Positions 3,096-55,364 of a DNA stretch of 64,000 nt are shown here, piece by piece. The stretch comes from Buxus sempervirens (Eukaryota; Streptophyta; Magnoliopsida; Buxales; Buxaceae). Made by a program: the position numbers and the translations under genes. Under the pieces are notes generated by a model, which was not told the DNA's origin, did not search any database, and saw only the letters and a list, made by a program, of their open reading frames with translations. Each line of letters begins with the position of its first letter. The first letter of the stretch is position 1. The DNA is taken from positions 40,964,901 through 41,028,900 of the forward strand of contig OX387183.1 of the NCBI GenBank assembly GCA_947561395.2, in the 5' to 3' direction.

Positions 3096-3246
3096 GTTTC
3101 ACATTTTTATTTTATTTTTTTTTATTTTTTTTTGAAACATTTTATTCAAACTCATTTCCCTTTATCATCATTTAAAGGTTAAAGGAACAAGATTTGGTGG
3201 GAAAAGAATGCAAAAATTGGATTTTCCGCAAAACCTGTAAATATAT

Positions 3247-29910: not shown

Positions 29911-31205
29911 TGTGAGACATGGGAAAAAATCAAATCCAATGACTTCCTCAATCATCACACGAGATTACATAAAACAAAGAGTCGTCACCATTCAATTTAG
30001 GTGTGAATGGACACCAAAATATCAAATAAGCACAAAAGACAATTTTAGGGTAAAAATAACCCTACTAAAAAAACAACCAGAGAAGGGTAAGGGGATTAGG
30101 TTATGAACAGGGGAAGGTGTTAGGCACCCCTATTCATCCACACAAGGTAGTTGCCAGGTATTGTTCATGTTAAATTAAAGGAAAAAAGCTTGCTATAAAA
30201 ATCAGGAAAAATCACAAAAAAGACAAAAATATATGGTCTTTTCATATGAATAGTCTGATTGATCCAGAACTTTCAAATATGATCATACCATTCCTAGGGT
30301 TTCATGTTCAAAATAAAATTGAGATAAAATCAAATAAAATCAATTTAAAGTTAAAAATCCAAAAATCTGGTTTCAAGTTAAATTCTAGAAATCTAGAAAA
30401 ATATGATTTTTATAAAATATTTCAAAATTGAACTTGAATAGTCTTGGACATAGATATAGCTCAAATTTTACATTAAATCAAAAAATCAAAACCAAAAATA
30501 CCCACGTTGATGAAGAAAATCAAAAGGGGAGAATTTAGACCGTAGGGTCTTCTCTCAATAATGAAAAACGATTTAAAAACCACATCATGAAACCCTAGAA
30601 TTTATTTTCAGGCTTTTGGATCCAGATCTACCATATTGATCATGATAAATCCAAGATCTTAGCCTAAAATCACAAAAATCACGAAAACAGTGCTGTAGGT
30701 GCAAATATGTGAAAAATCCAAATTTTATAAAAAAGTGGGGATCTCATGCTATAAACATCATAGATTCATGTGATTCATTCAGATATATCATAAAAAGCAA
30801 TAAAACATGATCAAGATATTTAAAACAGCCACATCTCACAGATTAGAGCACATTGGGGTCTACCCTACGGATCCACGTGTTCTCTTTTCTCCTAGCTCTC
30901 CCTTCACGTTTTACGGCTAGAGAGGATTCTTGAGGTACTTGGAGATGGGTTTGGGTATGCAAATACAATCAAAGGCTTTATTCTATAAAAAAGAGGAGAA
31001 AAACAGATATGGGGTTCTATTCTAGGGATCCACCTGTTCTCTTTTCCCCTAGCTCTCTCTTCACGTTTTACGGCTAGAGAGACTCTTGAGGTACTTAGAG
31101 ACAAGTTTAGGAATACTAGATACAAAAGATGGCCTTATTCTATAAAAAAAGGAGAAGATCCTATTATCTCTAGAATTGAAGACAGAAAATAAAAGGGAAA
31201 AGGGA

Positions 31206-31314
31206 CTTACCTGGATTGAGCAAGCAGGGCAGCAGGGATTCCTCTCTTCTTTTGGAGCTTCTTAGACTTCAAATTTTCGTGGCCTTTTGCTTGAGGAAAG
31301 GCCCTCTATTTATA
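31206..31314 (-). promoter_or_regulatory. TATA box and splice donor in the 3' LTR of element 5
   Basis: TATAAATA on the minus strand at 31314-31307 and CAG/GTAAGT at about 31214-31206. It is the same arrangement as in the 5' LTR copy at 54843-54951. Confidence 0.6.
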
Positions 31315-31528
31315 GGCAAACCCAGGGGTATGGTTGGTCCAAGGTTTGGCAAGATAGAGTTTCAGTTTGAGTTAAACACAAGATCATGCCCATCCTTTAT
31401 CCACAAAGATATTTCGCACGAATAAAATATATAATTCGCTCATTTAAAGGGATATTGGACTAAAGATAAGGCTTAGAAATCGAAAGAAGAACAGAACTCG
31501 CACGAGTCTGATGCGCCTGTAAATGATT

Positions 31529-31626
31529 TACGGTCCTACGATGTCCGTATATGTATTACGGGCACAGCGTGCCCATATATAAAATTCGGGCGCGCTTAGC
31601 CCGTAGATACAATACGGTCAAGGCTC
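31529..31626. repeat. 28-bp-period palindrome array in the 3' LTR of element 5
   Basis: 21-bp units start at 31529, 31557, 31585 and 31613, exactly 28 bp apart. Arms are TACGGTC/GTCCGTA, TACGGGC/GCCCATA and TTCGGGC/GCCCGTA, and the fourth unit is a left half only. Confidence 0.92.
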
Positions 31627-31721
31627 AACTTATTGATTTTCATGCATTTTTTGCCTATTTTAAATTCCAATTAATGTTTTTATTATTTTCTCATTTTGTA
31701 GTGCAATTTGGGGTGTCTACA

Positions 31722-31739
31722 ACTGCCCCCTTTTTGTTG
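31722..31739 (-). other. Polypurine tract of element 5
   Basis: On the minus strand ACAAAAAGGGGGCAGT abuts the LTR start TGTAGACACC. Confidence 0.8.
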
Positions 31740-31909
31740 GTAATTGGAACCAATTACAAGCAGAGAGAAAAAAATGACCCACCAATTGCACTTTTTGAGA
31801 TCTTTGTTTTACTATTTGCACTTTGCAAGGATTAAAAGGATGAAAAAGGATTTATTGTGGAAGATTTGCTAGAAGTCCCTCAGCTTAAGGGCCAAATCCT
31901 CCTCTCTCC

Positions 31910-31941
31910 TCTCACTGAGCTCTCGTGGCTATGATGTGAGA
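31910..31941 (-). other. 3' hairpin 4 with conserved 18-nt loop (element 5)
   Basis: TCTCAC and GTGAGA pair, with one T-T mismatch next to the loop GAGCTCTCGTGGCTATGA at 31917-31934. The loop is identical to that of hairpin 3 in element 4, but the stem is different and shorter. Outer pairing may continue (CAAAT/ATTTG) past a pyrimidine insertion in the left arm. Confidence 0.65.
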
Positions 31942-32078
31942 TTTGAGACAAAATTTTTTAAACAAAAGTGGGTAAGGTGGCAATCCTTGCAACTTACAAC
32001 TAATATGGACATTAATCTCCTGAAAAGTGTGGAGAAAATAATAAAATATGCAATTTTCTGCTTCGCCAGTATTTTCAT

Positions 32079-32170
32079 TACGGACAGGTTATGCCCGTAA
32101 TGTTTCTACGGGAGGTTGGGACCTTGTTACCTCCGCGGGCGTCTGCTGCCCGTACTGTCTTTACGGATTT
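32079..32170. repeat. Palindrome array upstream of antisense gene 1
   Basis: TACGGAC-N7-GCCCGTA at 32079, a unit with a decayed right half at 32107, CGCGGGC-N7-GCCCGTA at 32134, and a left half at 32162. Steps are 28, 27 and 28 bp. It is the same motif as in the LTR and leader, now about 1.4 kb before the antisense start codon and directly ahead of its putative leader. Confidence 0.85.
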
Positions 32171-33568
32171 TGGCTTCCTTTCTTAACCGCGGCCGCGACT
32201 TCTTCTTCATTTCTGTCCGCACTTCAGCCCTATCTTCTCTGATTTCTCTGTGACCGCAAACCCTATTACGGTTTTTCCTCTTCCATTGACCGCACTTGTC
32301 TTCTCCGGCGACACTCAACTTCTCCGGCGACCACTGTTATCTCCGGCGACTACTGTTTCCTCCATTGAACCCAGCGACGACTGATTCCTCCGGGGATTCT
32401 TTGCTTCTTCATCCACTGCCGTGGCTGTGATCAGGCTTTTGGGTGTGCTTCGAATCTCTTCAACCAATTGTGGTCACTCTTTGAAGCTCCGGTATAGTAA
32501 GAGTTCCCACTTTGCTTGCCACATTTCATCCATTTCGATTGAACCAAGTGAGTGGCCGAAATCCCTCTGAGCTTTTCTTATGAACAATGTATGCAACAAT
32601 GAAATTTTTGCTCTTGATTGAACCGAATGTTTACTTTGTCTACATTAGCCTGATTTGATTCGAAATTTCTATGCCCTTGAATTCTGGAATGATTAAACTC
32701 CCCAACATTGGTTTGTTCATCATTGCGACCTGCTGATTTTTCTTATATCCGAAATGATGCTTGCATTTTCCTGACTCTTGAATGAGAAATGATTATCTCC
32801 ATCTGTAGATTTTCTGTTTTCATGTTTATTGTTGACAAGCGTGCTTATTTGTTCCCAAATTTCTGATGGATCCATGCTTGACCTTTTAGGCTAATTCTTT
32901 GCATTTTCTACTCTTGCATCAGATTGTAAACTCTTGACTAATTTGAATTCCCCAAATGTGGGTTTATGTCCATTCTGCCTTCTGAATGTTCTTGAGGGCT
33001 ATGGACAATTTTCCTTCTTGAATGCCCTTACCAAATGACCGTGTGCCTTTATAACTTATTTTGCTTGCTATCTCCACACCGGCTTTAGACTTGTGATGCT
33101 GCCATGCCTGTTCGGATTTGGATTTTACTCTCTTGAATCAAACAAGAATCAATTATTGACTCAATCGATATGAAAATATCTTGGTATGAAACAGGTAATC
33201 TTCGTGCCAATTTAAGCATGCTTTGACTATCCTGAAACCAAGTAAAATACATGATTAAACATTTTAGAGACAAAATAAACTCTAATCTCAGAATCTAAAT
33301 TTTAATAAGCACTTTTCTTCTTTCTCTTGTGTTTCTTTGTTGTATAAGAATAACACATAAGAAAACAACAACAAAGAGATAGTAAAGTATCTCCAAAACA
33401 AAATTTTGGTGCACAGAAGGAAATCCTCTTTGGTAGAATCCCGGTTTGTTTGTACTTCTGATGCATTTCCCTTTCCAATCCTGTGAACAATTAAACTTGG
33501 TTAACATGAAAATCAATCAATTAAAATTTTAACAAGAATAATTAACATCTCCCTGATTTGAACTATAG
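32171..33568 (+). other. Putative promoter and 5' leader of antisense gene 1
   Basis: CT-rich sequence with three TCTCCGGCGAC repeats (about 32300-32350) is followed by a donor-like CCAA/GTGAGT near 32549 and by an acceptor-like ACTATAG directly before the ATG at 33569. This would give a leader intron of about 1 kb. No coding frame is supported. The reading is inference from splice-site-like motifs. Confidence 0.4.
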
Positions 33569-36452
33569 ATGGCCCGCCTTAGGTCAGCTTCCAGAGATCC
33601 TGCAGATGAGCCTTCCTCCTCGAGGGTTAGGCGGGATCATGCGGATGTGGTCTCGTCTTCGAGGGCCGAGAGGGATTCTGATTCAGACATTCCTGATCTT
33701 CCTTCTGGGGATTCGCGTGAGGCGACCCCGGAGGTATACTCTAACCTTTCTAAAATTTCACATTCCTTCATAAAATTCACCCTGATCCTATCTTTTTTCC
33801 AATTATTTCCTTAGCCGGCAGTTGAGGCTTCGGGCAGAGACAAGAGCCGTAGCAAGCGCCGAGGTGGAGGCAGAGATGTAGGCCATGATGAGGTCCGTAG
33901 AGGAGGCCGTGGCAGAGATGAGGCCCGGACCAGAGTTGAGGTCCCTGAGGCGATTGCTGCCCAGATTAGGGATACCGATCTTTTGCATGGCTTGAGGACT
34001 CATCCCTCAGCGTGTATTAGGGCAGATATCCCTCTGGAGTATCCCATGTCTCATTATCGTGGGAGCTGGGCTAGCTTTATTAGATTCTTGGGAGCCTGTA
34101 GTTCAGCTTATCGCCGGGAGCTAGGCTTATATGGCTTTGGCCTATTCATTACCATTCCGGATGTGCGCCTGGATCAGGCCCTTATTGCTGCACTGCTCAA
34201 GAGATTCTTCCCAGAGACATTGAGCTTCCACTTCCTGGATATCTAGATTGGGATCAGGCCGTCTGACTTCACGCTCATCACCGGGATTAGGATGATCGGT
34301 GATGTTATTCCTGAGATGGTGATGCCAGATGCTGATGAGATCGCCTCCTACCTTGAATATATTGTGCTGCCTCCTGAGGCATGGGATAGAGGGAGAGCGA
34401 GACTGTCTCTGACTTGGTTGAGAGAGACTTTCCAGGTGAGGCAGTTTGGCCAGCTTGCCGCTGGTGATCCAGTTTTATTGTATGCCTTTCGATTTCTTTT
34501 CTTGTACATGATGGGCTCCTGCTTCTTCCCAGAGGAAACGACTTCAGTTAGTCCTCATTTTCTGAGCTTATTGGGGGATCTTCATCGAGTGAGGAGGTAT
34601 GCATGGGGCCTGCTCATTTTTGGTACTATTCTGGCCGGACTGCGCCGATCAGTGAGTGGCCTCTCTACTTCCAGAGGAGCTGGAGTTGGGTGCAGATTCT
34701 TCTGGCCCTTCTTGCAGGTGAATCATTTTTTTCTCTTCTCTTTCTTTCTCTCTTTCTCTTTTTCTATTCTTCTGACTCTCTTTCTTCTTTCTGCAGTTCT
34801 TTGCTAGGGTTTATATACCCTTTTTCCGCCCTACCTCTACGATATCAGAGGAGACATATCCTATGGCCCGTAGATGGTGTCATGTGGAGCACGACTCTGA
34901 AAAGAGTCGTCCTAGGTCCGCCCGTGCCCACCTGGACAGATTATACCGGTTTGAGGTAATCTACTTTAATTCCTTTTCTTTTTTCTTTCTTTTTCTTCCT
35001 AAATCACATGTCTAATATTCTTCTTCTAGTTTTTCAGCTGTTTGTCCCCAGGATGGAGGACATTCATGAGGTGCTAGCCCTGCATGCGACCAGAGACGAT
35101 GCTTTTGTTCCTGACCAGAGACGACAGAGATATCAGTTCTTTATTGGTCAGATGGGCAGCATCTGGTACTGCGGCGAGCGCTTCTTCTATTAGCATGTGG
35201 GAGAGCCCCAGATTCCTGCCATTCCTCTAGATACTACCCCCTCCTTTCCTCCTATGCCTGTTGATCCTGCCCAGTTCCTAGATGGGACTGAGGCAGATAC
35301 TTTATTAGAGGAAGGAGACTATGATGCCTGGTTCAGGCGAGCTTCAGTCGGGTGCCTTATGCCACCCATGCCTGTCCGTGGTGGAGTCACGGAGATAGGA
35401 AGGGTAGTGATTAGAGCTTATGATACGACGATATGCCTTCTCTTTTTTTGTATCTTCTATTCTTTATTTTATTTGAACTTGGCATTTTCTGATACCTTCT
35501 CTTCTATTTCAGGAGGCTTAGTTGGCAGAGATTCGGTCTCAGTTCGCTGATATAAAGCGCCAGCGAGATGCTGCTATTGCCGAGTGGGACGCCCTCTACA
35601 TTACGATCTTAGACCTCCGGGGCCTGCTAGCCAGAGCACAGGGCCAGGTGGGTCCTTCTGATGCACAGGACCAGGCGGGTCCTTCTCATACTCAGGTTAA
35701 TTCTTTCACTTATTTCCATTCCTGCTCTTGTATTAGTTTGTCCTGCTCTGACTGAAATTTCTTCTCTTATTTTCAGGAGGATACAGCCGGCCCTTCTTCA
35801 CCTACTTCACCTGTGCCCATGCATTTTCGTGGTGAGGTTTTTTCTGTGGCACGGGTTGAGTTCGTGACTTCTCCCAGTCCGGTAGAGGCGCCTGCAGCAG
35901 AGCCTGAGATCGAGGCCGATTGAGCACCCATTACTGAGGTGGATGTGCCAGAGTCTGCTCCAGCACCTGAGACTGCTCCTGATGCATCTGTTGATGTGGA
36001 TATGGAGTCGGCCATGGATGCCGCTGTGGTAGAGCCTACCGTGGAGGCTGGGATGATGGAGGAGGCTACTGTTGCTGAGCCTGAGGTGGAGACTGCTGCT
36101 CCTGATGTTTTGATAGACCCTCCATCTATGATAGATGTTCTAGAGGTGTCGACTCCAGCTTCTGAGCTTGCTATTGGTATCGATCCTGTGGTTGAGCCTG
36201 TTCCTGCAGAACCTGATCTTGAGTCTGCTAGGGACGTAGATCTCCCGGGGTCTGCCCCTGCTTCTTCAGCTGACTCTAGGTATGTTTCTTTTATGCTCTT
36301 GACTTCTATTCTTGTATTTGCATGACATCCAATCAATTTTGGGCTGCAGGAGGGAGCGTATTTCCGCTCGTGATAAAGTGCCGATAGTCTTCGGGCGTCG
36401 ACGATCTCGAGGCAGAGGACGTGGCAGAAGAGATGGGTCTGCGGAGGCATAG
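33569..36452 (+). pseudogene. Antisense gene 1: plant-mobile-domain protein with basic RG-rich tail
   Basis: Seven exons: 33569-33733, 33815-34717, 34797-34955, 35038 to 35403 or 35430, 35513-35695, 35777-36279 and 36350-36452. All junctions keep frame with GT/AG introns, except that the longer exon 4 would need a mutated GT. The product would be about 790-800 residues. The N terminus is rich in R, D and S; exon 2 holds the plant mobile domain (LDQALIAALLKRFFPETLSFHF, ITGIRMIGDV, FLSLLGDLHRVRRYAWG); then come a short coiled coil, an acidic E/P/A-rich stretch, and RRRSRGRGRGRR before the stop. In-frame TAG at 34244, 35191 and 35519 and TGA at 35921 disable it. Plant mobile domains are known from nuclear silencing-related proteins and from transposons. 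The gene lies between integrase and the 3' LTR, opposite to gag-pol, as do extra antisense ORFs of other Tat elements. Confidence 0.8.
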
Positions 36453-36662
36453 TAGATTAGGATTTTTTATATACATGTATTTTGACAAAAGTGATGTACA
36501 TATTCATATATATAAAAGAAGTTTGATTTTTATTCATTTCTGATCTTTTCTTCTTTGTTTTCAGCTTTTATTGCATGATGAATGTTAAAGCAGGGACAGG
36601 TGAAGCTTAGGGAAACAAGGAAATTAAACTTTCCCATTTTTTTTGCATTTTTCCGAAGGAAC

Positions 36663-36792
36663 CGTACTTAGACTACGAGCAAGCCGTGCCCATAATTTTA
36701 ATACGGGCGCACTCTGCCCGTGAATTTTCCACGGTCAAGTGTGTCCGTATTCTTTATACGGGCGCTTTATGCCCGTATTATAATTACGGATT
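36663..36792. repeat. Palindrome array between the two antisense genes
   Basis: Units start at 36674, 36702, 36730, 36757 and 36785 (steps 28, 28, 27, 28): TACGAGC-N7-GCCCATA, TACGGGC-N7-GCCCGTG, CACGGTC-N6-GTCCGTA, TACGGGC-N7-GCCCGTA and a left half. A right half precedes them at about 36661. The array is 120-250 bp upstream of the ATG of antisense gene 2. Confidence 0.9.
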
Positions 36793-36913
36793 TTATTGCC
36801 TTAACGATATTTTTTATATAAACTCATGGAGAATGTCATTGTGACACTTTTAATAGTTTGAAAACTCCCTGAGCACGTCCTTTCTCACTTTCCTTGGCTT
36901 CTTTGGCGCTTCC

Positions 36914-37645
36914 ATGGCTTCCCCTGCACCGTTCTCTTATGCCGTTGAATCTCCTCCTGCAAGACAACCTGTTAGATCAAAACCTCCTAATCTCACCAAG
37001 TATAACGTTGTGGACTCCTTCTATAACATGTGGGTCAACTCCATGACCCTTGATGAAGAAATTCGCTGGGATTCTATCCACTTAGGGCATATCCTACACA
37101 TCCCTAAAATTCCCTTTAAGTGGGAAATCATTGAAGCTTTGATTGGACACTGGGTTCCTGAACTAAATCTCTTCCGTTTTGATGACAAAGAGATGACTCC
37201 TACCATAGAAGAAATTGAAACCATCCTTGGCTTAAAATTTTCTGAAAAAGTTGTGAACCTGCCCCTAAAGCCTAGTTACAAAAAGGAGGCCTCTACATTC
37301 TTGGGTATAGGGAAGAAAGACTTAGGGAATTCTGATACCCTATTGACCTTGTCCAAAACCTTTTTGACTGAAAAACTTTTAAGGAGTGGGGACAAGGATT
37401 CTAGGTTTAATGCTTTGACTCTGATAGTGGTCAACTAGTTACTCTTTCCACGGGGTGATGACCAGGTTGACTTGGCTCTCATCTCAGTTATCTGTCAGGT
37501 TAGGGAACGTGAGAGATTGGTTCCTATGATCTTAGCAGATATATACCAGGCTTTAACTGACTGCTATTTCAGAAAGAAGAAACGCTTCTTTGCCTGCGCC
37601 CCTATCCTACAGGTAAGAAATAATAAAATTTTTTTTCTTTCTTTT

Positions 37646-37681
<36 letters not shown>

Positions 37682-38637
37682 CTTTCTTTTTTCTCTTTTT
37701 TTTCCTTCGAAATAAATTGAAATTCTCCATCTTTTTTTTTCAGCTTTGGTTGCTTGACCACCTGAGCCAAGTTGAAGAGATAACTCGCCGCTTCTTTCCA
37801 AGGTTGAAAGTTCCTGTTCTGATGAGCCACAGGGGTTGTCCTAATATCCAAGGCGGCAAGCAGGGATGGTTCACTTTTTTGGGTACTCTCCAGGATGATC
37901 AAGTGAGATGGCCTGGCACTTATCAGCCCAATCCAGAGACAGTGATTAGCTTCAGAGATAGGAACTTTCTGGTCCTGGAAGGCTTGAAATCTGCTGTTCT
38001 CTATCTTCCCTTGAGGGTTCTTCGGCAGTTTGAAGCGACCCAGGGAATTATGACCCCAACTGGCTATGAGAGCCTTGTAGGGCCACTTACATCAGCCACC
38101 ATGGGGCTAAATGCTCAATTAATGAATGAGTGGTCCTATGTTCACTTTCTGCGGGGTCCTGTCTTTTCTGAGTCCCATGTGAAGGACTATTACTTCTGGA
38201 TCAAAGAGCAAGTGCAGAGTCATGCCCCAGTACTAGAGGATCCTCTTGCAGTTCTTCCCCCTACCTATGAGGACATTCTGGAGTCTGAAAGGGCAACCCA
38301 TAAGCGGCTTCAACAAATATGGGTACGGGAGGCTCAAGAACTTAGGATAAAAGTCATTGATCTGGAGAGGAAACTTGAAAAACAGAAGTCTGGCCGCATT
38401 GCCAGGGAGAAGAAACTTGAAGAACAAAGGCAGGCTCGTCGCTTTGAAGTCCGAGCGATGCGGAAGAAATATCAAGATTCCCTGGCTGACCTTAGGGCGT
38501 TGAAGATCAAGCATTCTTTTTCAGATGAGATCATCTCCTTTTTGAGTGATCCTGATGCAGAGGGAGCTTCTGGAATCATTTCAACTCAGGAAGCTAGGAT
38601 TAGGGAGCTTGAGGAGCAGTTGGGGAGTAGGGATTAG
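36914..38637 (+). pseudogene. Antisense gene 2: DUF7745-like protein with C-terminal coiled coil
   Basis: Two exons, 36914-37612 and 37744-38637, joined in frame across a GTAAG...TTTTCAG intron of very T-rich sequence; about 530 codons. Residues 1-230 resemble the DUF7745-type region seen in many plant retroelement-linked proteins (FRFDDKEMTPTIEEIETILGL, then LLFPRGDDQVDLALISVICQ and ADIYQALTDCYF). Residues from about 440 are a charged coiled coil (ERKLEKQKSGRIAREKKLEEQ). The first exon is broken by TAG at 37436-37438; the rest is open. The start is the first ATG after the palindrome array and is followed by plausible sequence. No biochemical function is known to me. The family name is from memory and should be checked by profile search. 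Confidence 0.72.
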
Positions 38638-39778
38638 ATTCTTTTATCTTTTTTTTTTCTTCTTTTTTTTTCTTTCTCTTTTTTTTATATACGTTTATAC
38701 AAAAGCAGACTCCATTAGTGGAAAGACAATAGATTTAATTCAAAAATAGGTTTTATATTATTGGCCTCAGAATTCTCAGATGCTTGTAAAAACAGAAGTT
38801 TTATGAAAAGGTATTTGATTTCTCATCACTGGCCAAAGTATAGTTTTTTTTTTTTGAAAGCTGATCCACAACACTTAATCACATATAATCAAAGGAATTA
38901 ATATCAGGTTGAATAATGAAAAGGGTAATCCAAGCAATAGGGAGAGACCAAATCTGTCTACCCCGTGGCCTTTAGAATCATCCCCTAATGGCTTTTTCTT
39001 CATGACTGACCCTGCTAATCTGTTTAGTTTCCAGTGCTCATGCTGATTAATTTTGGACCATACGATCAACTCAACCCTTTGATTTTTTTCTTTTTCTCTT
39101 TTTTTTCTTTTGCCCCTATTGCCCCTAGTGCCAATTACGGTTTTCACTAGGGCCAGCTTCTGCATTCCGTCATCACCAATCTTACTTTGAAAGTTGAATG
39201 AATATACTAAAATCACCGAGGGCTTAATAATAGGACGAAACAAAGGCTAAGCTCGGTTTATGAAAGAAAAGGCATTAAAGGCTCAAAATTTTCTAAGTGT
39301 GAAAATGGGTCAACCGGAAGTACAATCATGATGAATTCAATCCCCTTCCCCTTCTTTTGTATTTGGCTTTCATTTGCCCCTATTTTTTTTTCTCTTTTTT
39401 TTCTTTCTGCCCCTATTGGCTTTGCCCTTATTGGCTTTGCCCCTATTGGCCTTGCCCCAGTATAAGACTGTAAGTCCAGTTTAGGTTTAACAAAGAAGAC
39501 GAACAGGCTCAAATTGGCTTGACTAGGGATGAAAATTTTGGGATATAAGAAAAACTGGCCTCAGATCATTTCCTAGTAATATTCATTCAAGGAAAATATT
39601 TCTTTACTGCATCAGAGTTAATTGGCTCAGGAAAATCCTTCCCATCCATCTCTGTTAGGATGAGAGCACCCCCTAACAGGACCTTCTTGACCACATAAGG
39701 TCCTTCCCAATTTGGTTTAAACTTTCCACGAGGGTCTTCCAAAAAGGGTAAGATTTTCTTCAATATTAAATTTCCTTC
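38638..39778 (-). other. Non-coding stretch between antisense gene 2 and integrase
   Basis: T-rich on the plus strand. It includes three tandem copies of a GCCCCTATTGGCTTT-like 18-mer at about 39378-39457. The part 38650-39640 is shared with element 4 (28980-29910 and 55365-55830). No gene is seen; 39640-39778 may still encode a decayed integrase C terminus. Confidence 0.6.
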
Positions 39779-41041
39779 TTAGAAAGTTCTGGGCTTTACC
39801 TTCTTGTTGTAAGCCCTGGCCATTCTCTTCTGATACAATTGGCCATGACAAAGCGCTTTCAGACGCTTTTCCTCTATTAAATTGAGTTGATCATGTCTTG
39901 ACTGTATCCATTCAGCTTCTTCTAATTTAGCTTCCTTTAGCACTCTTAATGAAGGTATTTCCACTTGCACTGGTAAAACTGCTTCCATTCTATATACTAA
40001 AGAATATGGGGTTGCCCCTGTAGAAGTCCGAATCGAGGTTCTGTAAGCATGTAGAGCAAGTGGCAGCATTTCATGCCAATCTTTGAAACTCACTACCATC
40101 TTCTGAATGATTTTCTTTATATTCTTATTCGCTGCTTCCACTGCCCCATTCATCTTTGGTCTATACGGAGCTGACTTGTGGTGGGTGATCTGAAATTGTT
40201 CACACATCTTTCTCATGTCCTTGTTCTTAAGGTTTGAAGCATTGTCTAATACTATGGCACTTGGCAAACCGTAGCGACAAATGATATTGTGCTTCAAGAA
40301 TTTCAAAACGTGGCTACTTGTAATGTTTGCATATGAAGCTGCTTCTACCCACTTGGTGACGTAATCAATTGCTACAAGTATAAACCTGTGTCCATTTGAT
40401 GCCTTTGGAGAGATCATTCCAATGACGTCTATACCCCACATGGAGAAGGGCCATGGAGATGTCATGTTGTGCAATTCACTTGGGGGTGCATTCTTGTTAT
40501 CAGCATACACTTGACATAAATGACACCTTTTGACATGTATATAGCAATCGTGCTCCATTGTTGACCAGTAATATCCCAATTGCAGAATCTTCTTTGCAAG
40601 CATGTGCCCGTTCATATGGGGTCCACACACTCCTCCATGTATAGTTTCAACTAACCTTTCTTACTCGGTCTTGGCAACACATCTAAGTAGTATATCATTG
40701 TGTGATCTTTTGTACAGCTGCCCACCACTTAGTAAGAACTGTCCTGCCAACCTTTGAATTGTTCTTTTTTCTGTAGAAGTGATATTTTCTGGCAGACTCC
40801 GATCATTTAGGAAGTTCTTAATATCTTGAAACCATCGTATTTCTTCTTCTGGGGTTTCTTCTAGAACAAGGCAATAAGATGGTTCATCTCTGACTTCAAT
40901 TTCCAGTGGTCTAATATCAACACCTTCTGGCATACTGACCATTGAAGCCAATGTTGCTAAAGCATCCGCAAACTAATTTTTGGCCCTTGGCATATAATTG
41001 AAGGAAATTCGAGTGAATTTGGTGCTTATTTCTTCCAAATA
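39779..41041 (-). pseudogene. int: Integrase of element 5 with preceding linker, interrupted
   Basis: Integrase inserts the retrotransposon DNA into the genome. The zinc-binding H-H-C-C is visible (HMNGH, CHLCQ), then the catalytic core with D in WGIDVIG, D in IVLDNAS and E in NGAVEAANKN, followed by the C-terminal part ending KKVKPRTF at the stop near 39779. The 283-codon block 40630-39779 is open. Upstream in the same frame it is broken by TAA at 40661 and TAG near 40956, each where a glutamine codon would fit. It is in frame with the RNase H and RT blocks to its right, so one pol frame is implied. Confidence 0.85.
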
Positions 41042-44627: not shown

Positions 44628-44639
44628 GAGGTCAGCAGC

Positions 44640-46777
44640 CTCACTGTTAGTTACCTAAGGGGCATCTTCCCCTTCCTTGGCCTTTCCTTTATTTTTCTCC
44701 TCTTCTTTCTTTTCTTTCTCTGTCTCCTTTTGTTTTTCTTCCATCGCTACACATTTTCTTGACCTCATCATGAGGTTCACTTTTTCCTTGCTTTCAGCTG
44801 CAAGGCATGTAGTGGTAAAATCTTCACTGTAGTTCCATGGTACAGCTGATTCAGAGTAGGAAGGCTTGGGGACATTTATCACCAAGGGAGGAAGTTTAAA
44901 CTTGGATGATGAAATTTGAGTAGGAGGCACATTTACAACCAATGGTGGAAGTTGTTTTGGTTGAGGGATTACAGAAGTGACTGATGCATTAAGATGGTCA
45001 CAGTTTATGACCAATGATGGTTTTGATTGAATGGGTGAAGTAAAGGTGGATGGACTGTAATTGACGACCAAAGGTGGTTTGGCTATGTTCATTTGGGCCA
45101 TGAGAGATGAGACCCGGTCCAGAGAAGAACTAATGTTCTTAGCAGCACTATCATTCCCCTTTGAAACCATATTTATTTCTTTGTCCTTATTTATTCTGTC
45201 AAAATAAACTTTGACCGTTGTCCCTATTGAAGCAATTAATTGGGATGGGTCAAAGGTTATTTTATCAGAAGAAATTACCCCTATGACATTAGAGGGGTCT
45301 GCCCCATGATGTTGAGGCAATGGGTTTTGGCCAATATCTGTTCTGGGAGGATTAGGAGCTCCCGTATTGAAAGACAGGGTATTCTGGTCCAGTAAATCCT
45401 GAATGGCATGTTTCAAAGGCCAGCACTTGTCAGTAGGGTGCCCAAGTGCACCCATGTGGTAATCACAAGTGGTGGAGGGGTCAAAATTTCTCCCCTTGGA
45501 TGCATTCGGATTGGGCTCTCTTAAAGTGATATACCCCGCTTGCAATAAAGTGGGAAGCAACTGAAAAGGAGTCATTGGAATAGGAGTGAAAACCCTATTT
45601 CTCCTTGCTGCAAAATAAGCGTCCTTTTCCTCCTTAGTAAAAACCCTTTTTTGGTCTGAAGGTGCTGCTGGAACATTAACCCTCATAGGGGCCTGGGTAG
45701 ATGGAGATGGAGTAGGAAAATGAGCAGGTATGTTGATTTGTATGGGCTTATTAGGGCATGATGGTAGCTGCACCAGGTTTACTTCCCCTTCTTTTTCAAC
45801 CCACTTCCTTTCTTTAGATTGGGGTATTGCTGACTAACCATAGCAGAGTGGTCAATTATTTTACCTGACCTTATCCCGTCCTCAATTCGGTCAGCCACTT
45901 GAACTAAGGCAGTAAAAATAGTGGTGGTCTGACCCACCAGGTGGCTGTAGAATGGTTGACCCAATGTGCTGACGAAGGTGGAAATCATCTCCTGTTCTTG
46001 TATAGGTGGCCTGACCTGAGAGGCAGTCTCCCTCCATCTCTTGGCATATTGTCTCACGGATTCGTCCCTTCCCTTGCTCATTCTCATTACATCGTACCTG
46101 TCTGGCACGATTTCTGAATTAAACTTGTACTGAGCTAGGAAGGCATCTGCTAGGTCCTTCCATCTTCTGATCTTTCCATGGTCTAAAGTGGCAAACCATC
46201 TCAAGGCGGTTCCAGTTAAGCTCCTTTGGAAGAGCTGGATCAGAACACCCTCATCTCGACCGAACTGGCATAAGGCACCACAGTATAACTTCAGATGACT
46301 CATGGGGCAGCCAGTGCCATCATATTTATCTAGGTCTGGGCACTTGAACTTAGCTGGCAGGTTAACATTAGGGTACAAGCACAAGTCTTCAAAGTTGGTG
46401 CCCCCGAAGTTGTTCACCCCTTTTACTTCCCTCAGTTCGTCTTTGATCATTTCCAGTCTGTGCATGAACTTACTTTCAACTTCTTCCCTCATCCTTTCCT
46501 TTTCCTTAGCTTTGTCTGACTCCACTGTCTCATCCCTGATCAGTATAGGTTCAGGGGTAGGTTCATAGATGGGTTCAGGAATAGGTTGAACCGGAGGTGG
46601 AATGTTGATTTGTGGTGGAGGTGCGGGGTTGGAAGTGGATGCTTGATTTTGGGCTTGCACTTGTTGGGCCTGTACTGACAGTATGTTCTCTAGCATTCGG
46701 GCCAATCCTGCCACTTGCTCTTGAAGCAAGAGAATATCTGGGTGAGGAGCATCAGCTTCAGCCTCAATGGGATTCAT
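44640..46777 (-). pseudogene. gag: Gag of element 5, one frameshift
   Basis: The start chosen is the MNP methionine at 46777, by analogy with element 4; the frame is open further upstream to 46897 but crosses the predicted splice acceptor at 46831. The first block carries a Q-rich coiled coil and the gag core (KYDGTGCPMSHLK, LFQRSLTGTALRWF, KRWRETASQ). A frameshift near 45780 leads to the second block with the knuckle CDYHMGALGH...C (CX2HX5HX4C) and AIQDLLDQNTLSF. The end at 44655 is a TAG after which the homologous frame continues into the protease linker, so the normal product was a gag-pol polyprotein. Confidence 0.88.
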
Positions 46778-46830
46778 GGCACGAGCTCTTGATCTGGTTA
46801 CAGGAGCTATGATTGCAAGTGTATTAGTAC

Positions 46831-46850
46831 CTGGAAAAAATAAAAAAATC
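46831..46850 (-). promoter_or_regulatory. Splice acceptor upstream of gag, element 5
   Basis: On the minus strand TTTTTTTATTTTTTCCAG ends at 46831 and is followed by GTACTAATAC. Elements 1 (2088) and 4 (58615) have an acceptor-like tract at the same place, 51-54 bases before the gag ATG. Confidence 0.6.
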
Positions 46851-46969
46851 AGTGCCCAATTAATCTCATTCACATGCCTAGGAATGCCTATGTGCAAGCT
46901 GGGTGAACACGAGTTTGGATTTTGTTTCTTTATTTGCTTCTTTTTTTTTTTTTAGAATTGTTGGAATAT

Positions 46970-47414
46970 TCTAGGGCTTCCAACAGGTCCCACAAAAAGA
47001 GAAAATGATCTGAAATTCAAAGGCTTTTAGGGGCCCGGGGGTATTTTTAAAAAAGGTCTGAAATTCAAAGGCTTTCAGAGGCCCAAGGATATTTTTGGAA
47101 AAGGTCTGAAATTCAAAGGCTTTCAGAGGCCTAGGGATATTTTTGGAAAATGTCTGAAATTCAAAGGCTTTCAGAGGCCCAAGGATTTTTGATAACAGTC
47201 TGAAATTCAAAGGCTTTCAGAGGCCCAAGGAGTTTTGAGAAAAAGTCTGAAACTCAAAGGCTTTCAGAGGCCCAAAGATCTGAAATTCAAAGGCTTTCAG
47301 AGGCCCAAAAGATCTGAAATTCAAAGGCTTTCAGAAGCCCAAAAGATCTGAAATTCAAAGGCTTTCAGAGGCCCAAAAATAATCTGAAATTCAAAGGCTT
47401 TCAGAGGCCCAAAA
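46970..47414 (-). repeat. Leader hairpin minisatellite of element 5, left block
   Basis: About 11 units with CTGAAA-TTCAAAGGC-TTTCAG and AGGCCC, preceded by one GGAATATTCTA unit. It is interrupted at 47414 by solo-4 and resumes at 51449. Confidence 0.9.
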
Positions 47415-48126
47415 TGTAGCGCCCCAGATCCGGGTCTGCACTATCACAGCACCAACCCGTACCCGAGACCTACCTATGGGCCCAATAGAACCTGATAAAC
47501 ACAATTTCCTGGGCAATTACATGTAATTATCAGAGTGCATGACTAAAGAAGCATGGAATAAAAATTTTCCATATAATCAAAAGATCATCTGTACTATAAT
47601 CTCCAAAACATGATATACATGTGGACAAAATACAACTAAGGCAACTAACCATTCACAATGATCTTTCCAAAATATATAGACATGTACAAAAGATATCTCC
47701 CAAGAGTATAGGTCCAAAAATATTATTTACATCCCATATACAATCCCCAAGACAAAATACATCATCATAATAAGAACCCTCCTACGGGTAGAAATGGTAG
47801 CCCTCTAGTCTTTACTCAAGCTCACCCTCAATGCCTGCCCCAATACGCGGCTCACCAAGCGGATCTGAAAACAAATCCGGTAACACAAAACACGCGTGAG
47901 ACTTAAAGTCCCAGTAAGCAGCAAACATGCATGCAGAGAAATAGTTTATGCAATTTCATAACATCGTGGTAATATTCACAAGTATAAGATACCAAATGTA
48001 AACCAAAACATCTCAAACAGATATAAAGTGAAATTCCAAGTCAAATATCTCAATCGGGTAATTCATGAAATCAAATCAACCATTCCAAGTCAAATGTCCA
48101 AATCAGATTAATGATCGTTGTCCAAG

Positions 48127-48350
48127 ATTAAGGCCAAGCGGAGTATTTCAACACTGCCGACGAATTAAGGCCCAATGGAGTACTTCTATACTGCCGACAG
48201 AATCAAGGCCAAGTGGAGTACTTCTACACCGCCGACGCATCAAAGCCAAGTGGAATACTTCTGCGCTGCCCGATGAATCAAGGCCTAGTGGAGTACTTCT
48301 ACGCTGCCCGATGAATCAAGGCTAAGCGGAGTACTTCTACACTGCCCCGG
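48127..48350. repeat. About five 43-bp tandem copies in solo-4
   Basis: Repeats of AAGGCCAAGTGGAGTACTTC followed by TACxCTGCCGA in direct order, 70-90 percent alike by eye. Confidence 0.8.
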
Positions 48351-49034
48351 TTCATGAAATCCAAAGTCAATCAAAACAGGTACCATAAAATCCTCAAAAC
48401 ACATTTCGGCCAAGTGGAGTAGTCTTATAATTCTCAAATAAGTCATCCTACCAAAAATCAATGGATTCCGAGACAAAAAGTTTTGGACCTCGAAAATATT
48501 CCAAGTCTGGATGAAAACGTTGACTTTTCGGTGTAGAATTTTTCTAGACAGATCTACAAGGAGTTTGGGGCTCAAATTTTGGTTGTAGTCTATTGGAGGG
48601 TATATAAATCATCTAGAATTTTCTGGGCTTCTGAATCACTCGTTTGGATATCAAACTCAAAAAAGTGGCCTTTTATGAAAATCGGGAAAACTGGAAAATT
48701 AGACACAAACTGGAAAGTTGACTTTTTATTGGTTGGGAATTGGGCCTTGAGAGTATTTTTATTGGTTCCAAATGGGGGGTAAAACCTTATTTACATGTAA
48801 AGACTTAAGTAAATGGAGCAATAAATACACAGGACTTTTACTTAAATGTCTTTCATGTAATAAGGGTGCTCTGCCGAAGGCTTGGGTTGTTTGGAAAAGG
48901 GTTGAGGAGAAAAAGGCTGAACAAATCAAGAAACAAGGTCCACGATTAGGTTGTGGATTAATCGTCCAGGGGCGATTAGCTTTAGTGTTCGGGCGTTGAG
49001 CTTTAAAGTTCGGGCGTTGAGGTTTAAAACAAAG

Positions 49035-49126
49035 GTAGCGCGCGCACGTTGAAGGTTTACGTTCGCGCGCTACGGCAATACATAGGTTGACGCGCGCGCG
49101 TTGAGCTTTGACGCTCGCGCGCTGAG
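49035..49126. repeat. GC-rich interrupted palindromes in solo-4
   Basis: GTAGCGCGCGCACG at 49035 pairs with CGTTCGCGCGCTAC (13 of 14) around an 11-bp spacer. A second, weaker 39-bp unit starts at 49088 after a 14-bp spacer (10 of 14 pairs). It stands out as GC-rich in AT-rich surroundings. Confidence 0.75.
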
Positions 49127-49869
49127 GTTATGGATTAATTGCCCAGATTAATCCTGATTCGCGATTTAGGATAACAGAGACTTGTTTTTAGAGTTTTGAC
49201 TCAGGATTAATCGTCAAATTTAGGATTAATCGCCGGCTCGGGACTTTGAAATATTTTGACTATTTCCAACACCAAACTCATGGGAATCATTTCCGACATT
49301 TCCAACATCAAATAGGATTATCATAAAACATCCCAACATACTTTAAAACTCTTTCCAAACAAAGATTCATCCCAAATCCACATGAACACAAATCTAACAC
49401 ATGCAACCTCATTCAAGACACAAATCTCAAACCCTAATCTAAAATATGATCAATGGCGTTGGAAATCCATGGCAAATCAATAGAAAGTTAACCAAGATCA
49501 TCATACAATCAAAACCTACGAATTTTAGAAGCGAATAGCAACATGCAAGATCATTTCTTCAAGTAAATCAAACCCTAGAGAGAGAATACGAATTTTTGTA
49601 ATTCATTTTGTTTTGAAGGGTTTGCTACTTACTTGTTAATGGAGAAGCACAACTTCTCTTCAAGTTCTCCTCTCCTTCTTCTTCTTTTTCTTCTTGCTCA
49701 AGCTTTCAAGTGAGCTCACAATCTTCCTCTCTTGATCTATACGTCCAAGACAAGAGAAATGAGTTTTCAAACCCTTAATTAGAAATTAGGGCATCCTTTT
49801 ATATGCCCAAGTTTTGGGTCTTTCAAATCTGCCCCTAAACAAGGCTTTTATTCAACTAAAACCCTAGGG

Positions 49870-51190
49870 TGTACCTAAGGCATACCAGGGGTACCTTAGT
49901 GCTATTCGAGTGGGGTACCTTGGTATTAAGTGGGATACCTTAGTGTTAAATGGGGTGTTTGCCTTAGCCACTTCAGAAGGCATGCTTTAGGAATGCTTGG
50001 GAGGTGTACCTCAGTTAACACAGAAGGGTACCTCAGTTATATGAGGGGTACTTTAGTTATTTGAGGAGGTACCTTGATGTTTCAAGGGATTTACCTTAGT
50101 TATTCTAAGGGGTAAACTTTGAATAAGATTAGGGGGTGTACCTTAGTTATATTGAGGAGGGTACCTTAGCTATATAATGGGTTATACCTTAGGCAAAACA
50201 ATGGGGGTTACCTTACTTATATAGGGGTTACTTTAGTTATACAAAGGGGGTACTTTGGCTATATAGGGGGTGTACCCTAGGTAAAACAGTGGGGGTACTT
50301 TACTTATATGAGAGGAGTACCTCTAGGAAATACAAGGGGTGTACCCTAGGTAATATAGGGGATGTACCTTAGGTATGTTGGAGGTACTTTAGTTATATAA
50401 AGGGGGTACCTCTAGCTGTATAAGGGAATGTACCTTAGCTAAACAAGGGGTACTTCAAGTAAAACAGTAGGGTACCTTAGTTAAAATGAAGGGATACCTT
50501 AGATAATACAAGTGAGGTACCTTAGGTACAATTAGGGGGTACTTTAGGTATTCGAATGTGGTACCTTGGGTAAAACAGTGGGATACCTTAGCCGATATGA
50601 GTGAGGTGCCTTAGGTAATATAAGGGGGTACTTTAGCTATACATGTGGGGTACCTTAGGCAAACACAAGAGGATACCTTAGGCAAACACAGGGGTACCTT
50701 AGGCAAACACAAGGGGATACCTTAGGTAAACACAGGGGTACCTTAGGCAATTAAAGTAGGGTACCTTAGGGATACAAGTGGGGTACCTTAGTATAATTGA
50801 GGGCTACTTTAATTAACACTTGGGTGGTACCTTGAGTAATACTTGAGCATAACTTGGGCACACAATGAGGGTACCTTAGGAAATACTTGGGTGTACCTTG
50901 GGTATACAAGTGGGGTACCTGGGGTATACTTGAGAGGTTATTTGGGTATTCTTGGGAGATACTTAAGGTACACTTGAGAGGTACCTTGGGCATTCTTAAG
51001 AGTTACTTTGAGTATTCTTAGGGGATAATTTGGGTACACTTGGGAGGTACCTTGGGTACTCTTAGGAGTTACTTTAAGTATTCTTGGGAGTATTTTGGGG
51101 TATACATGGGTATACACTAGTGTTATCTGGGAGGGTACCTGGGGTAAACTTTAGGGTACCATGGGTATACTTGGGAATTAATCTAGGTAC
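49870..51190. repeat. GGGGTACCTTAG minisatellite in solo-4
   Basis: About 1.3 kb of irregular units of 20-35 bp built on GGGGTACCTTAG followed by a variable AT-rich tail (TTATATGAG, GCAAACACA, GTATACTTG). Dozens of copies; the best conserved stretch is about 50640-50780. It lies in the part of the LTR upstream of the putative leader. Confidence 0.9.
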
Positions 51191-51448
51191 ACATAAGTCC
51201 AATTTTTCAGAATTTTATTTCCAATTCATTTAAGCTAATTGGAGAGTATCTTAGACAATTGGAATTGAGAAATAACATTGATTAAATTTTCCTTAATAAC
51301 CTTCATACAGTTCAATTGATTTATCTAAATCCTCAAGAATAATCCACATTTACCTCATCTTCGTAACACAATTACTTAATTAGTCTAATAATCACACTTT
51401 AGATAATTAATCTTAATAATTAAGATATAATCCGGGTCGGGGTTTTAC

Positions 51449-52065
51449 ACAAAAGATCTGAAATTCAAAGTCTTTCAGAGGCCCAAAAGAAAAAGGTCTG
51501 AAATTCGAAGGCTTTCAGTGGCCTAAAAGATCTTAAAGTCAAAGGCTTTCAGAGGCCCAAAGGAAAAAGGTCTGAAATTCAAAGGCTTTCAGAGGCCCAA
51601 AAGATCTGAAATTCAAAGGCTTTCAGAGGCCCAAAGGAAAAAGATATGAAATTCAAAGGCTTTCAGGGGCCTAAAAGATCTGAAATTCAAAGGCTTTCAG
51701 AGGCCCAAAGGAAACAGGTCTGAAATTCAAAGGCTTTCAGGAAAAAGGTCTGAAATTCAAAGGCTTTCAGAGGCCCAAAAGAAAAAGATCTGAAATTCAA
51801 GGGCTTTCAGAGGCCCAAAGGAAAAAGGTCTGAAATTCAAAGGCTTTCAGAGGCCCGGAGATTTTTGAGAAAAAGTCTGAAATTCAAAGGCTTTCAGAGG
51901 CCCAAGGAGTTTTTGAGAAAAAGTCTGAAATTCAAAGGCTTTCAGAGGCCCGAGGAGTTTTTGAGAAAAAATCTGAAATTCAAAGGCTTTCAGAGGCCCA
52001 AAGAGTTTTTGAGAAAAAGTCTGAAATTCAAAGGCTTTTAGAGGCCCAAAGGATTTTCTCTCACA
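51449..52065 (-). repeat. Leader hairpin minisatellite of element 5, right block
   Basis: About 17 units of CTGAAA-TTCAAAGGC-TTTCAG plus AGGCCC, in part with GAAAAAG linkers, continuing the block that ends at 47414. Confidence 0.9.
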
Positions 52066-52194
52066 TTTCTTTTTTTTCTCTTTTTTTTTTTGAAGCACTT
52101 TATTCAAGCTCATTTCCCTTTATCATTATTTAAAGGTTAAAGGAATAAGATTTAGTGGGAAAAACTGATTAAAATTGAATTTTTCGAGAAAACC

Positions 52195-52335
52195 GTATAC
52201 ACAGTACGGTCCAGCCTTGCCCGTATTCAAATTACGAGCGAGCCGTGACCGTATGGAAAACACGGGCGAACCCAGCCCGTATAACTAATACGGACGAGCC
52301 CAGCCCGTGTATCAAATGCGGTTTTACGGAGCTCT
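52195..52335. repeat. 28-bp-period palindrome array in the leader of element 5
   Basis: Units start at 52205, 52233, 52261, 52289 and 52317, exactly 28 bp apart, with a right half before them. Arms include TACGGTC/GCCCGTA, TACGAGC/GACCGTA, CACGGGC/GCCCGTA and TACGGAC/GCCCGTG. Confidence 0.93.
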
Positions 52336-53528
52336 TTTATGTTTTCCCAGTTTTTACATGGTTTGATCACTTTAATTGCTCATCCAAACATACGGTTCAC
52401 CCAGTGCAGGGCTTTTAAACTGTCCCAAAGTGGACTTTGACCTATTTGCAAAAACACATGTTTAGGAGGGCACATGTACCCTCCGAATTGACACCTCATT
52501 CTAGAATTTGGTACCCTTTTGTTGCCTCTTGTATGAAAATTGGGTAGGATTGATTCTAAACAGAGTTAAAAACTCTTCCTATGGGCTGCACCAATTTTAG
52601 AAAACATGCCTATTTTGGGACCAAATTTATCCTGAACCAATGGGCACCATGACACCCCTATGACATGAAAATAATGTAAAACAATAGGATTACCTTGTTA
52701 CCTTGTTTTCCTTCAATAAGGCATCCGCATTATGCCCTGGTTTGTAAGCCATGCAAACGGCCTTCCCACAATTTACAAACCCATATCCCTACGTAATTGT
52801 GTACTTTAGCGAAAAATGTGTAACTCCACCTTCAAGCGTAGGGGTTTTGGGTTTTGGCTTAATGGCAACTTATCACTCAAGCCTAGTGATGACCAGAATC
52901 CCAGATCCACGTTATCATCACATCATTAGCTCAAAGTTCTAAGGTGAATGTTTTCACTTTCGCTTTCCGAAGTATCGACCTCGTTGCGCCAAGCTACACA
53001 CATTCGGGTTCAACTTCCTATAGGTTAAGGGTAGGCTGTGTAAAAAAAACTAAAATGTGCACAGTGCATTATAAAAATAGGGTGCATTCACAACGTCCCA
53101 AACCCTTGCCACTCTTTTCGCAGCCATGCATACACAAACCAAGGCATAATATGAAAGCATATTTAAAGTAAACAAATACACAAAACAATCCTATAGCACC
53201 TAAAACATGCTCATAAAAATCATCCAATCATGCAAGCATCTGATCATGTTATTCAACCCATAAACACATCATGGAGATCATGCTAAAAATTAAAACATGC
53301 TATTATAAAAATTCAGCAAGAAATAAGCATAGTTCATCAAAACGAACCTCCCCTACGCCTGTTTCTAGAAACGATCCTATATATCAGAATTAAGCATGTT
53401 TCTACCCCCATGAATTCTTAAGCAATAATTCAGATTTAACATATACTCAACATGCTTAAGAACACAAAATAGTAAGCAAATAAAAAAACAAAAACATGAA
53501 CAAACACCAAAAGGCTTAAATCCTCAAG
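52336..53528 (-). other. Non-coding 5' leader of element 5
   Basis: 1.2 kb between palindrome array and PBS, alignable over its length with 3341-4536 of element 1. No gene is seen. Confidence 0.7.
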
Positions 53529-53546
53529 TCCCCAGCAGAGTCACCA
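53529..53546 (-). other. Primer-binding site of element 5
   Basis: TGGTGACTCTGCTGGGGA on the minus strand, two bases after the LTR end. It differs from the element 4 PBS by one C-to-T change. Confidence 0.85.
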
Positions 53547-54842
53547 GTTGTGAGACATGGGAAAAAATCAAATCCAATGACTTCCTCAATCATCACACGG
53601 GATTACATAAAACAAAGAGTCGCCACCATTCAATTTAGGTGTGAATGGACACTAAAATATCAAATAAGCACAAATTACAATTTTAGGGTAAAAATAACCC
53701 TCCTAAAAAAACAACCAGAGAAGGGTAAGGGGATTAGGTTATGAATAGGGGAAGGTGTTAGGCACCCCTATTCATCCACACAAGGTGGTTGCCAGGTATT
53801 GTTCATGTTAAATTAAAGGAAAAAAGCTTGCTATAAAAATCAGGAAAAATCACAAAAAGACAAAAATATATGGTTTTTTCATATAAATAGTCTGATTGAT
53901 CTAGAACTTTCAAATATGATCATACCATTCCTAGGGTTTCATGATCAAAATAAAATTGAGATAAAATCAAATAAAATCAATTTAAAGTGAAAAATCAAAA
54001 AATCTGGTTTCAAGTTAAATTCTAAAAATCTAGCAAAATATGATTTTTATAAAATATTTCAAAATTGAACTTGAATAGTCCAGGACATAGATATAGCCCA
54101 AATTTCACATTAAATCAAAAAATCAAAACCAAAAATACCCACGTTGATGAAGAACATCAAAATGGGAGAATTTAGACCGTAGGGTCTTCTCTCAATAATG
54201 AAAAATGATTTAAAAAGCCACATCATGAAACCCTAGAATTTACTTTCAGGCTTTTGGATCCAGATCTACCATATTGATCATGATAAATCCAAGATCTTAG
54301 CCTAAAATCACAAAAATCACGAAAACAGTGCTGTAAGTGCAAATATGTGAAAAATCCAAATTTTATAAAAAAGTGGGGATCTCATGCTATAAACATCATG
54401 GATTCATGTGATTCATTCAGATATATCATAAAAAGCATTAAAACATGATCAAGATATTTAAAGCAGCCATATCTCACAGATTAGAGCACATGGGGGTCTA
54501 CCCTACGGATCCACCTGTTCTCTTTTCCCCTAGCTCTCTCTTCACGTTTTACGGCTAGAGAGGATTCTTGAGGTACTTGGAGATAGGTTTGGGTATGCAA
54601 ACACAATCAAAGGCTTTATTCTATAAAAAAGAGGAGAAAAACAGATATGGGGTTCTATTCTAGGGATCCACCTATTCTCTTTTCCCCTAGCTCTCTCTTC
54701 ACGTTTTACGGCTAGAGAGACTCTTGAGGTACTTAGAGACAAGTTTAGGAATACTAGATACAAAAGATGGCCTTATTCTATAAAAAAGGAGAAGATCCTA
54801 TTATCTCTAGAATTGAAGACAGAAAATAAAAGGGAAAAGGGA

Positions 54843-54951
54843 CTTACCTGGATGGAGCAAGCAGGGCAGCAGGGATTCCTCTCTTCTCTTGGAGCTTCTT
54901 AGACTTCAAATTTTCGTGGCCTTTTGCTTGAGGAAAGGCCCTCTATTTATA
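54843..54951 (-). promoter_or_regulatory. Sense promoter of element 5: TATA box and splice donor
   Basis: TATAAATA on the minus strand at 54951-54944, then CAG/GTAAGT about 100 bp downstream at 54851-54843. This is the copy that should drive gag-pol. With the acceptor at 46831 it defines a predicted 8-kb 5' intron, about 4 kb before solo-4 inserted. Confidence 0.65.
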
Positions 54952-55165
54952 GGCAAACCCAGGGGTATGGTTGGTCCAAGGTTTGGCAAGATAGAGTTTC
55001 AGTTTGAGTTAAACACAAGATCATGCCCATCCTTTATCCACAAAGATATTTCGCATGAATAAAATATATAATTCGCTCATTTAAAGGGATATTGGACTAA
55101 AGATAAGGCTTAGAAATCGAAAGAAGAACAGAACTCGCACGAGTCTGATGCGCTCGTAAATGATT

Positions 55166-55263
55166 TACGGTCCTACGATGTCCGTATATGTATTACGGGC
55201 GCAGCGTGCCCGTATATAAAATTCGGGCGCGCTTAGCCCGTAGATACAATACGGTCAAGGCTC
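55166..55263. repeat. 28-bp-period palindrome array in the 5' LTR of element 5
   Basis: Units at 55166, 55194, 55222 and 55250. The second unit is TACGGGC-N7-GCCCGTA, more symmetric than its counterpart in the 3' LTR. It lies 215-320 bp upstream of the TATA box. Confidence 0.92.
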
Positions 55264-55364
55264 AACTTATTGATTTTCATGCATTTTTTGCCTGTTTTAA
55301 ATTCCAATTAATGTTTTCATTATTTTCTCATTTTGTAGTGCAATTTGGGGTGTCTACAGTTAAC

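Follow-up and report, generated by a model that had tools for sequence, protein, structure and literature searches.

In Arabidopsis, VANDAL transposons encode VANC, an anti-silencing protein for which the available text of two reports describes family-specific motifs (PMC5735166, PMC10398659). In Retand, Grande and RIRE2 elements, the interval from pol to the 3' long terminal repeat (LTR) holds genes that run antisense to gag-pol; in the available parts of the sources, the antisense open reading frames (ORFs) have their own promoter in Grande, a regulatory or DNA-binding role is proposed for them, their target sites are not named, and the function of such genes in Tat/Ogre/Retand elements is termed unknown (PMC11963269, PMC7264820). 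The PMD domain (pfam10536) occurs in 57% of Ogre elements, according to a paper whose available text mentions neither operator arrays nor a link between such arrays and these genes (PMC6317226). The host PMD proteins MAIN and MAIL1 are needed for the expression of genes sharing the promoter motif DOWN, and their direct contact with DNA or chromatin is stated as not known in the text available (PMC7156037, PMC9899485). Here, we describe a 64,000-nucleotide stretch of Buxus sempervirens DNA (contig OX387183.1, positions 40,964,901 to 41,028,900; hereafter the window), in which the LTR retrotransposon called element 5 (29911-55358, minus strand, 25.4 kb) carries phased palindromic sites in its LTRs, its leader and ahead of two PMD-type antisense genes.

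As in the VANC/VANDAL system, in which short family-specific motifs are concentrated in non-coding parts of the elements and differ among related families, the two main types of array found here, I and II, are family-specific motif arrays in non-coding regions. However, the VANDAL carriers are MULE-type DNA transposons and the VANC motifs are short, lack palindromic symmetry and share a single orientation, as far as the available text describes them, whereas here the carrier is an LTR retrotransposon outside VANDAL, with phased palindromes at promoters and PMD-type proteins. We regard VANC/VANDAL as the closest working parallel, and the present arrays lie outside that system. The antisense position between pol and the 3' LTR is shared with Retand, Grande and RIRE2, although the genes are PMD-type and not of the Transposase_28 type reported for the Retand ORFs; unlike MAIN and MAIL1, they are element-borne. 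Since PMD is reported in more than half of Ogre elements, the PMD genes of element 5 are a known feature, and with its very large size and extra PMD-type ORF the element shows Ogre/Tat features. Foamy virus Tas and Tax of human T-lymphotropic virus are retroelement-encoded activators that target the LTR and, in the case of Tas, an internal promoter as well, but they are unrelated proteins from sense genes with another site layout. Arrays such as these were not found in the openly accessible literature on retrotransposon or Ogre PMD genes and palindromic sites, so far as its text was available.

Judged from sequence, the arrays may be family-specific operators of a dimeric regulator encoded by Ogre-type retrotransposons themselves, a reading that we hold to be evenly poised between right and wrong. 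A narrower version, that antisense PMD regulators of Ogre elements bind phased CCG-N11-CGG operators and that families split by a switch of operator letters while gene 1 diverges, is offered tentatively, as somewhat more prone to fail than to hold.

The half-sites TACGGGC and GCCCGTA alternate at 14-bp intervals in the type I arrays of the window (Table 1), where 20 palindrome sites with at most two mismatches were counted against 0.01 expected, and a chain finder returned seven arrays against none in 20 local shuffles. A first-pass annotation, made from the letters of the window, had placed arrays of element 5 at 31529, 32079, 36674, 52205 and 55166 and further ones in the LTR and leader of element 1; all of these are present, although its total of six arrays for element 5 has to be corrected to five. 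Its exact 28-bp step describes most intervals, but the gene 1 and gene 2 arrays each contain one step of 27 bp, and in this copy the third unit ahead of gene 1 is degenerate. Across the single genome analysed (676,531,615 bases, 247 contigs), exact TACGGGC-N7-GCCCGTA occurs 7,417 times and exact GCCCGTA-N7-TACGGGC 11,266 times, with zero matches to the reversed-pattern control in both cases. A three-half-site pattern had no match in viral contigs.

The register of the unit was derived from 94 distinct arrays of at least four half-sites each, taken from the window and from further loci, many of them related. In 88 of the 94, the array consists of whole units that open with a GCCCGTA-type and close with a TACGGGC-type half-site; four have the GCCCGTA type at both ends and two the TACGGGC type. 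Every one of the 343 steps from a GCCCGTA to the following TACGGGC half-site measures 14 bp, while the linker step from TACGGGC to the next GCCCGTA is 14 bp in 206 cases and 13 bp in 49, so that slippage is confined to the linker. The unit interior has a GC content of 0.215, with A or T at its positions 2 and 6 in 97-98%, compared with 0.54 in the linker. Because of the array ends, the fixed inner step and this difference in composition, the unit is read as GNCCGTA-nWnnnWn-TACGGNC; the palindrome named in the first-pass annotation, TACGGGC-N7-GCCCGTA, is the linker register, and the likely dimer site is GCCCGTA-N7-TACGGGC. The number of units per array ranges from two to five, and 57 of the 94 arrays have at least four.

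In element 5, 200 bp separate the 5' LTR array from the TATA-like TATAAATA downstream of it (54944-54951, minus strand), and the gene 2 array stops 23 bp above TATATAAA (36815-36822). The arrays recur in other copies of the family. Each of the 30 sampled gene 2 loci, element 5 among them, shows an array in the interval from -254 to -118 relative to the ATG (the strict finder detects only three half-sites in L054 and L055), and TATA lies 98-101 bp before the ATG; of the 29 copies in which array end and TATA could both be placed, 28 have them 21-23 bp apart and one has a gap of 4 bp. The gene 1 array is present in six of eight gene 1 upstream pieces, five of these six also having an array near the LTR end and the sixth (L041) one farther inside. 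Positions are also non-random in a sample of 20 loci drawn from the exact sites that were listed for contig C1 within its first 10 Mb; every one matches one of these slots (LTR 17, leader 2, gene 1 upstream 1), and 19 hold at least two units. Eight of the LTR matches resemble element 5 and nine belong to a second, putative LTR type, in which the array ends 14-15 bp above TATA at seven of nine loci. With the predicted gene 1 start, random placement of the three internal arrays of element 5 would hit both antisense promoters with a chance of 0.001. Three loci once taken for gene 2 arrays (L009, L014, L027) proved to be LTR or gene 1 arrays in reverse; of the two upstream pieces without a gene 1 array, one is a nested insertion and the other, L037, had been cut too far out, beyond the array.

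The statement of the first-pass annotation that arms are kept while spacers vary holds at all three kinds of position compared. Pairwise mismatch is 0.051 in core arms against 0.169 in spacers for gene 2 promoters (27 of 30 copies, after removal of three with truncations or indels), 0.099 against 0.36-0.37 for gene 1 promoters (seven copies) and 0.077 against 0.33-0.37 for LTRs (six copies). The downstream flank of the gene 2 promoters, comprising TATA and the 5' untranslated region (UTR), is conserved like the arms (0.047), but the upstream flank is less so (0.125). Between elements 1 and 5, differences fall on 11 of 56 positions in the arms and on 23 of 49 in the spacers (p 0.0035).

A different palindrome, TATCCGAC-N7-GTCGGATA (type II), forms arrays in the U3 region and leader of element 4, the element into which element 5 is nested. 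Exact type II sites number 5,483 genome-wide (control 0), and among the matches listed the distances between neighbours are mostly 39 bp or multiples of it, with some of 72 or 103. Type II sites also occur in a relative located at C1:9.63 Mb (L095, L100), where they stand in the LTR (four units, at most three mismatches), ahead of gene 1 (two exact units, 39 bp apart) and in the gene 2 promoter (three units 39 bp apart, one mismatch each), where the array ends 13 bp above TATAAAAG. Between the types, the gene 1 protein is 46.5% identical over 284 amino acids, the gene 2 protein 78.6% over 140 and 74.2% over 298 amino acids, and gag, compared between elements 4 and 5, 73.9% over 330 amino acids. 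CCG-N11-CGG is common to type I and type II sites, which were found independently. Further arrays consist of TATCCGGC or T (L036, L045, L066) and of TAGCCGAC and GATCCGAC (L096, L097); the same skeleton was preset in one search that contributed such variants. At L036, a type II-like unit preceding a gene 1 of type I was considered as a counterexample and dismissed, as it belongs to an inserted element-4-type LTR in opposite orientation. Likewise, a 5' UTR common to both types beside the operators was not upheld, a few letters being alike by eye and blastn giving nothing significant.

The gene 1 piece matches the PMD profile PF10536 with 29.7 bits (E 4.9e-7), below the cut-off of 34.9, and a comparison of this gene 1 stretch with solved structures gave no sequence relative up to an E of 1. 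Gene 2 exceeds the DUF7745 cut-off (36 against 26) and shows a weaker PMD match, below the PMD cut-off. A first look at the genome gave 3,045 candidates with the gene 1 piece as query and 5,084 with that of gene 2; each search scored 150 of its candidates. Pooled ratios of nonsynonymous to synonymous polymorphism (pN/pS) are 0.161 for gene 1 (21 of 30 copies) and 0.135 for gene 2 (27 of 30), in copies free of gaps or stops that were picked by protein score, which lowers the values; silent differences are six to seven times commoner than replacement ones, and both genes look to be under purifying selection. The frame immediately 5' of gene 2 (L050:357-1031; window 36303-36452) ends with an RGRGRGR-rich tail, AT-hook- or RGG-like by eye. 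This frame is probably the last exon of gene 1, and the tail could touch the AT-rich operator interior.

The reading of the arrays as phased sites for a dimeric protein, one of two options left by the first-pass annotation, is the best-supported, because the inner spacing is fixed at 14 bp, the arms are conserved, the placement is promoter-proximal and a second family uses the same skeleton. The different site versions in related elements suggest that each family has its own DNA-reading control protein. The operator would consist of CCG-N11-CGG with family-specific flanking letters, as GNCCGTA-N7-TACGGNC at 28/27-bp steps in type I and as the type II palindrome at mostly 39-bp steps, next to further variants; its slots would be the LTR U3, the leader and both antisense-gene promoters, where the type differs as a set between families. 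Since the operators differ set-wise on a common skeleton and gene 1 is the outlier in divergence, a dimeric regulator encoded by the element is proposed, with gene 1 as the first candidate and gene 2 perhaps as a partner. The matched divergence of gene 1 and operator makes it more likely that an antisense protein is the binder. Such a regulator would activate its own gene, gene 2 and the LTR or relieve them of silencing, and gag-only elements that retain operators would use it in trans; either of these effects is tentatively preferred to repression, since the operators are sited upstream of TATA and persist in gag-only elements.

Several observations weigh against this proposal. Because the sampled copies are close relatives picked by protein score, conservation is overstated and pN/pS comes out too low. 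A complete set of type II sites is known from one element (L095/L100), and the gag comparison used element 4 and not this relative. Outside the operators, the gene promoters of types I and II have no significant similarity by blastn, so the gene slots of the two types are equivalent in position only. Variants are mixed within some 39-bp arrays (L036, L098), others break the step (61, 72 or 103 bp), and there is a slight symmetry excess at arm position 1 (127 against 122.4, reached by 10 of 500 shuffles).

The arrays might be sites of a host transcription factor, such as a NAC- or VOZ-like dimer, recruited to drive the element promoters; they lie upstream of TATA, and the half-site contains an inward-facing CGTA, NAC and VOZ sites having a CGT core. 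However, the arrangement here is CGT-N9-ACG, compared with N7 for NAC and VOZ, and a host factor fits poorly with letters that differ between families as a set, in LTR, leader and both gene promoters, and with gene 1 as the divergence outlier; we consider this explanation unlikely. If the binder is encoded by the element, it might instead be a repressor serving copy-number control or autoregulation. Sites on its own promoters are as compatible with autorepression as with autoactivation, and the gene 2 promoter arrays end 13-23 bp above TATA. Yet the sites are upstream of TATA and not over it, which may tell against a repressor, and retention of operators by gag-only elements, with thousands of sites in the genome, would be odd for silencing. 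Repression is distinctly improbable in our estimate.

The arrays are inverted repeats, and in the leader the array has a stronger fold than 200 shuffled versions (z -4.46), as would be expected of any row of inverted repeats, so that a role as nucleic-acid structures (hairpins, cruciforms, small-RNA or methylation foci) has to be weighed. Yet the arms vary nearly independently and barely compensate, position 2 being symmetric in 84 of 166 units against 76.9 expected (core arm positions are fixed by unit selection and uninformative here); letters are kept and not pairing, and the U3 arrays lie upstream of the LTR TATA. Hairpins as the main function, the other option of the first-pass annotation, were rejected on this near-absence of arm co-variation despite the good leader fold, and structural roles at large seem very improbable. 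Passive minisatellites growing by slippage would suit elements rich in tandem repeats and arrays that differ in unit number, but arms and phase stay while spacers diverge, one unit is common to different promoters, and the distance to TATA is nearly fixed. This retention and the near-fixed distance led us to reject the minisatellite explanation, to which we give hardly any credence.

If the regulator encoded by the elements binds as proposed, the PMD of transposable elements would recognise specific DNA sequences by a code that can be read, and LTR retrotransposons would have their own equivalent of VANC; variants sharing one skeleton would show joint change of regulator and sites. Candidate DNA targets of two specificities, in thousands of copies in one genome, come with paired candidate proteins, which makes antisense-gene function and DNA contact by host PMD proteins testable together.

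Table 1. Arrays, antisense genes and tandem repeats located in the window (positions count from its first nucleotide).
Feature	Position	Strand	Details
Type I array, 5' LTR (U3), element 5	55152..55256		4 units: 55152, 55180, 55208, 55236
Type I array, 3' LTR, element 5	31515..31619		4 units: 31515, 31543, 31571, 31599
Type I array ahead of antisense gene 1	32065..32168		4 units; steps 28, 27, 28
Type I array ahead of antisense gene 2	36660..36791		5 units; steps 28, 28, 27, 28
Type I array, element 5 leader	52191..52323		5 units
Type I array, element 1 leader	3233..3337		4 units
Type I array, element 1 LTR, decayed	6160..6264		register matches element 5
Type II array, element 4 LTR	27357..27518		units 27357 (3 mismatches), 27396, 27457, 27496; steps 39, 61, 39
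Type II array, element 4 leader, decayed	61090..61229		39-bp steps
Decayed array, further variant ~TAGCCGAA-N7-TTCGGCTA, another element	13832..13971		39-bp spacing
Antisense gene 1, main PMD-type stretch	33815..34804	+	two open pieces, stop at 34244-34246
Antisense gene 2, DUF7745/PMD-type	36914..38637	+	open pieces 36914-37438, 37717-38637
Tandem arrays, unit ~TCTGAAATTCAAAGGCTTTCAGAGGCCC	2339-3099, 47001-47414, 51450-52057, 58881-59797		

Element 5 encodes Ty3/gypsy-type gag, reverse transcriptase (RT)/RNase H and integrase (Retrotrans_gag, RVT_1, RT_RNaseH, rve), and its LTRs are 97.35% identical. The LTR copies of element 4 begin at about 25089 and 63130 and are 95.8% identical over 872 bp; a gag match was found in this element, and none for RT, integrase or PMD in the stretches searched. 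An element at C1:8.11 Mb (L073, C1:8109900-8110700; L074, C1:8113000-8120500) bears type I arrays in the LTR; in the 7.5 kb searched of about 12 kb, its frames are gag-like only, with a gag match and none for RT, integrase or PMD. An 18-base primer-site-like sequence, which may fit tRNA-Arg, adjoins the 5' LTRs of elements 1, 4 and 5. By eye, GTTAAC flanks the element 5 insertion on both sides (29905-29910, 55359-55364). The element 5 LTR contains an internal direct duplication of about 157 bp (30854-31156, 54490-54788), with a similar one in element 1 (5514-5804). In elements 1, 4 and 5, the interval from gag to the leader contains the tandem arrays of Table 1, whose period is 34-48 bp.

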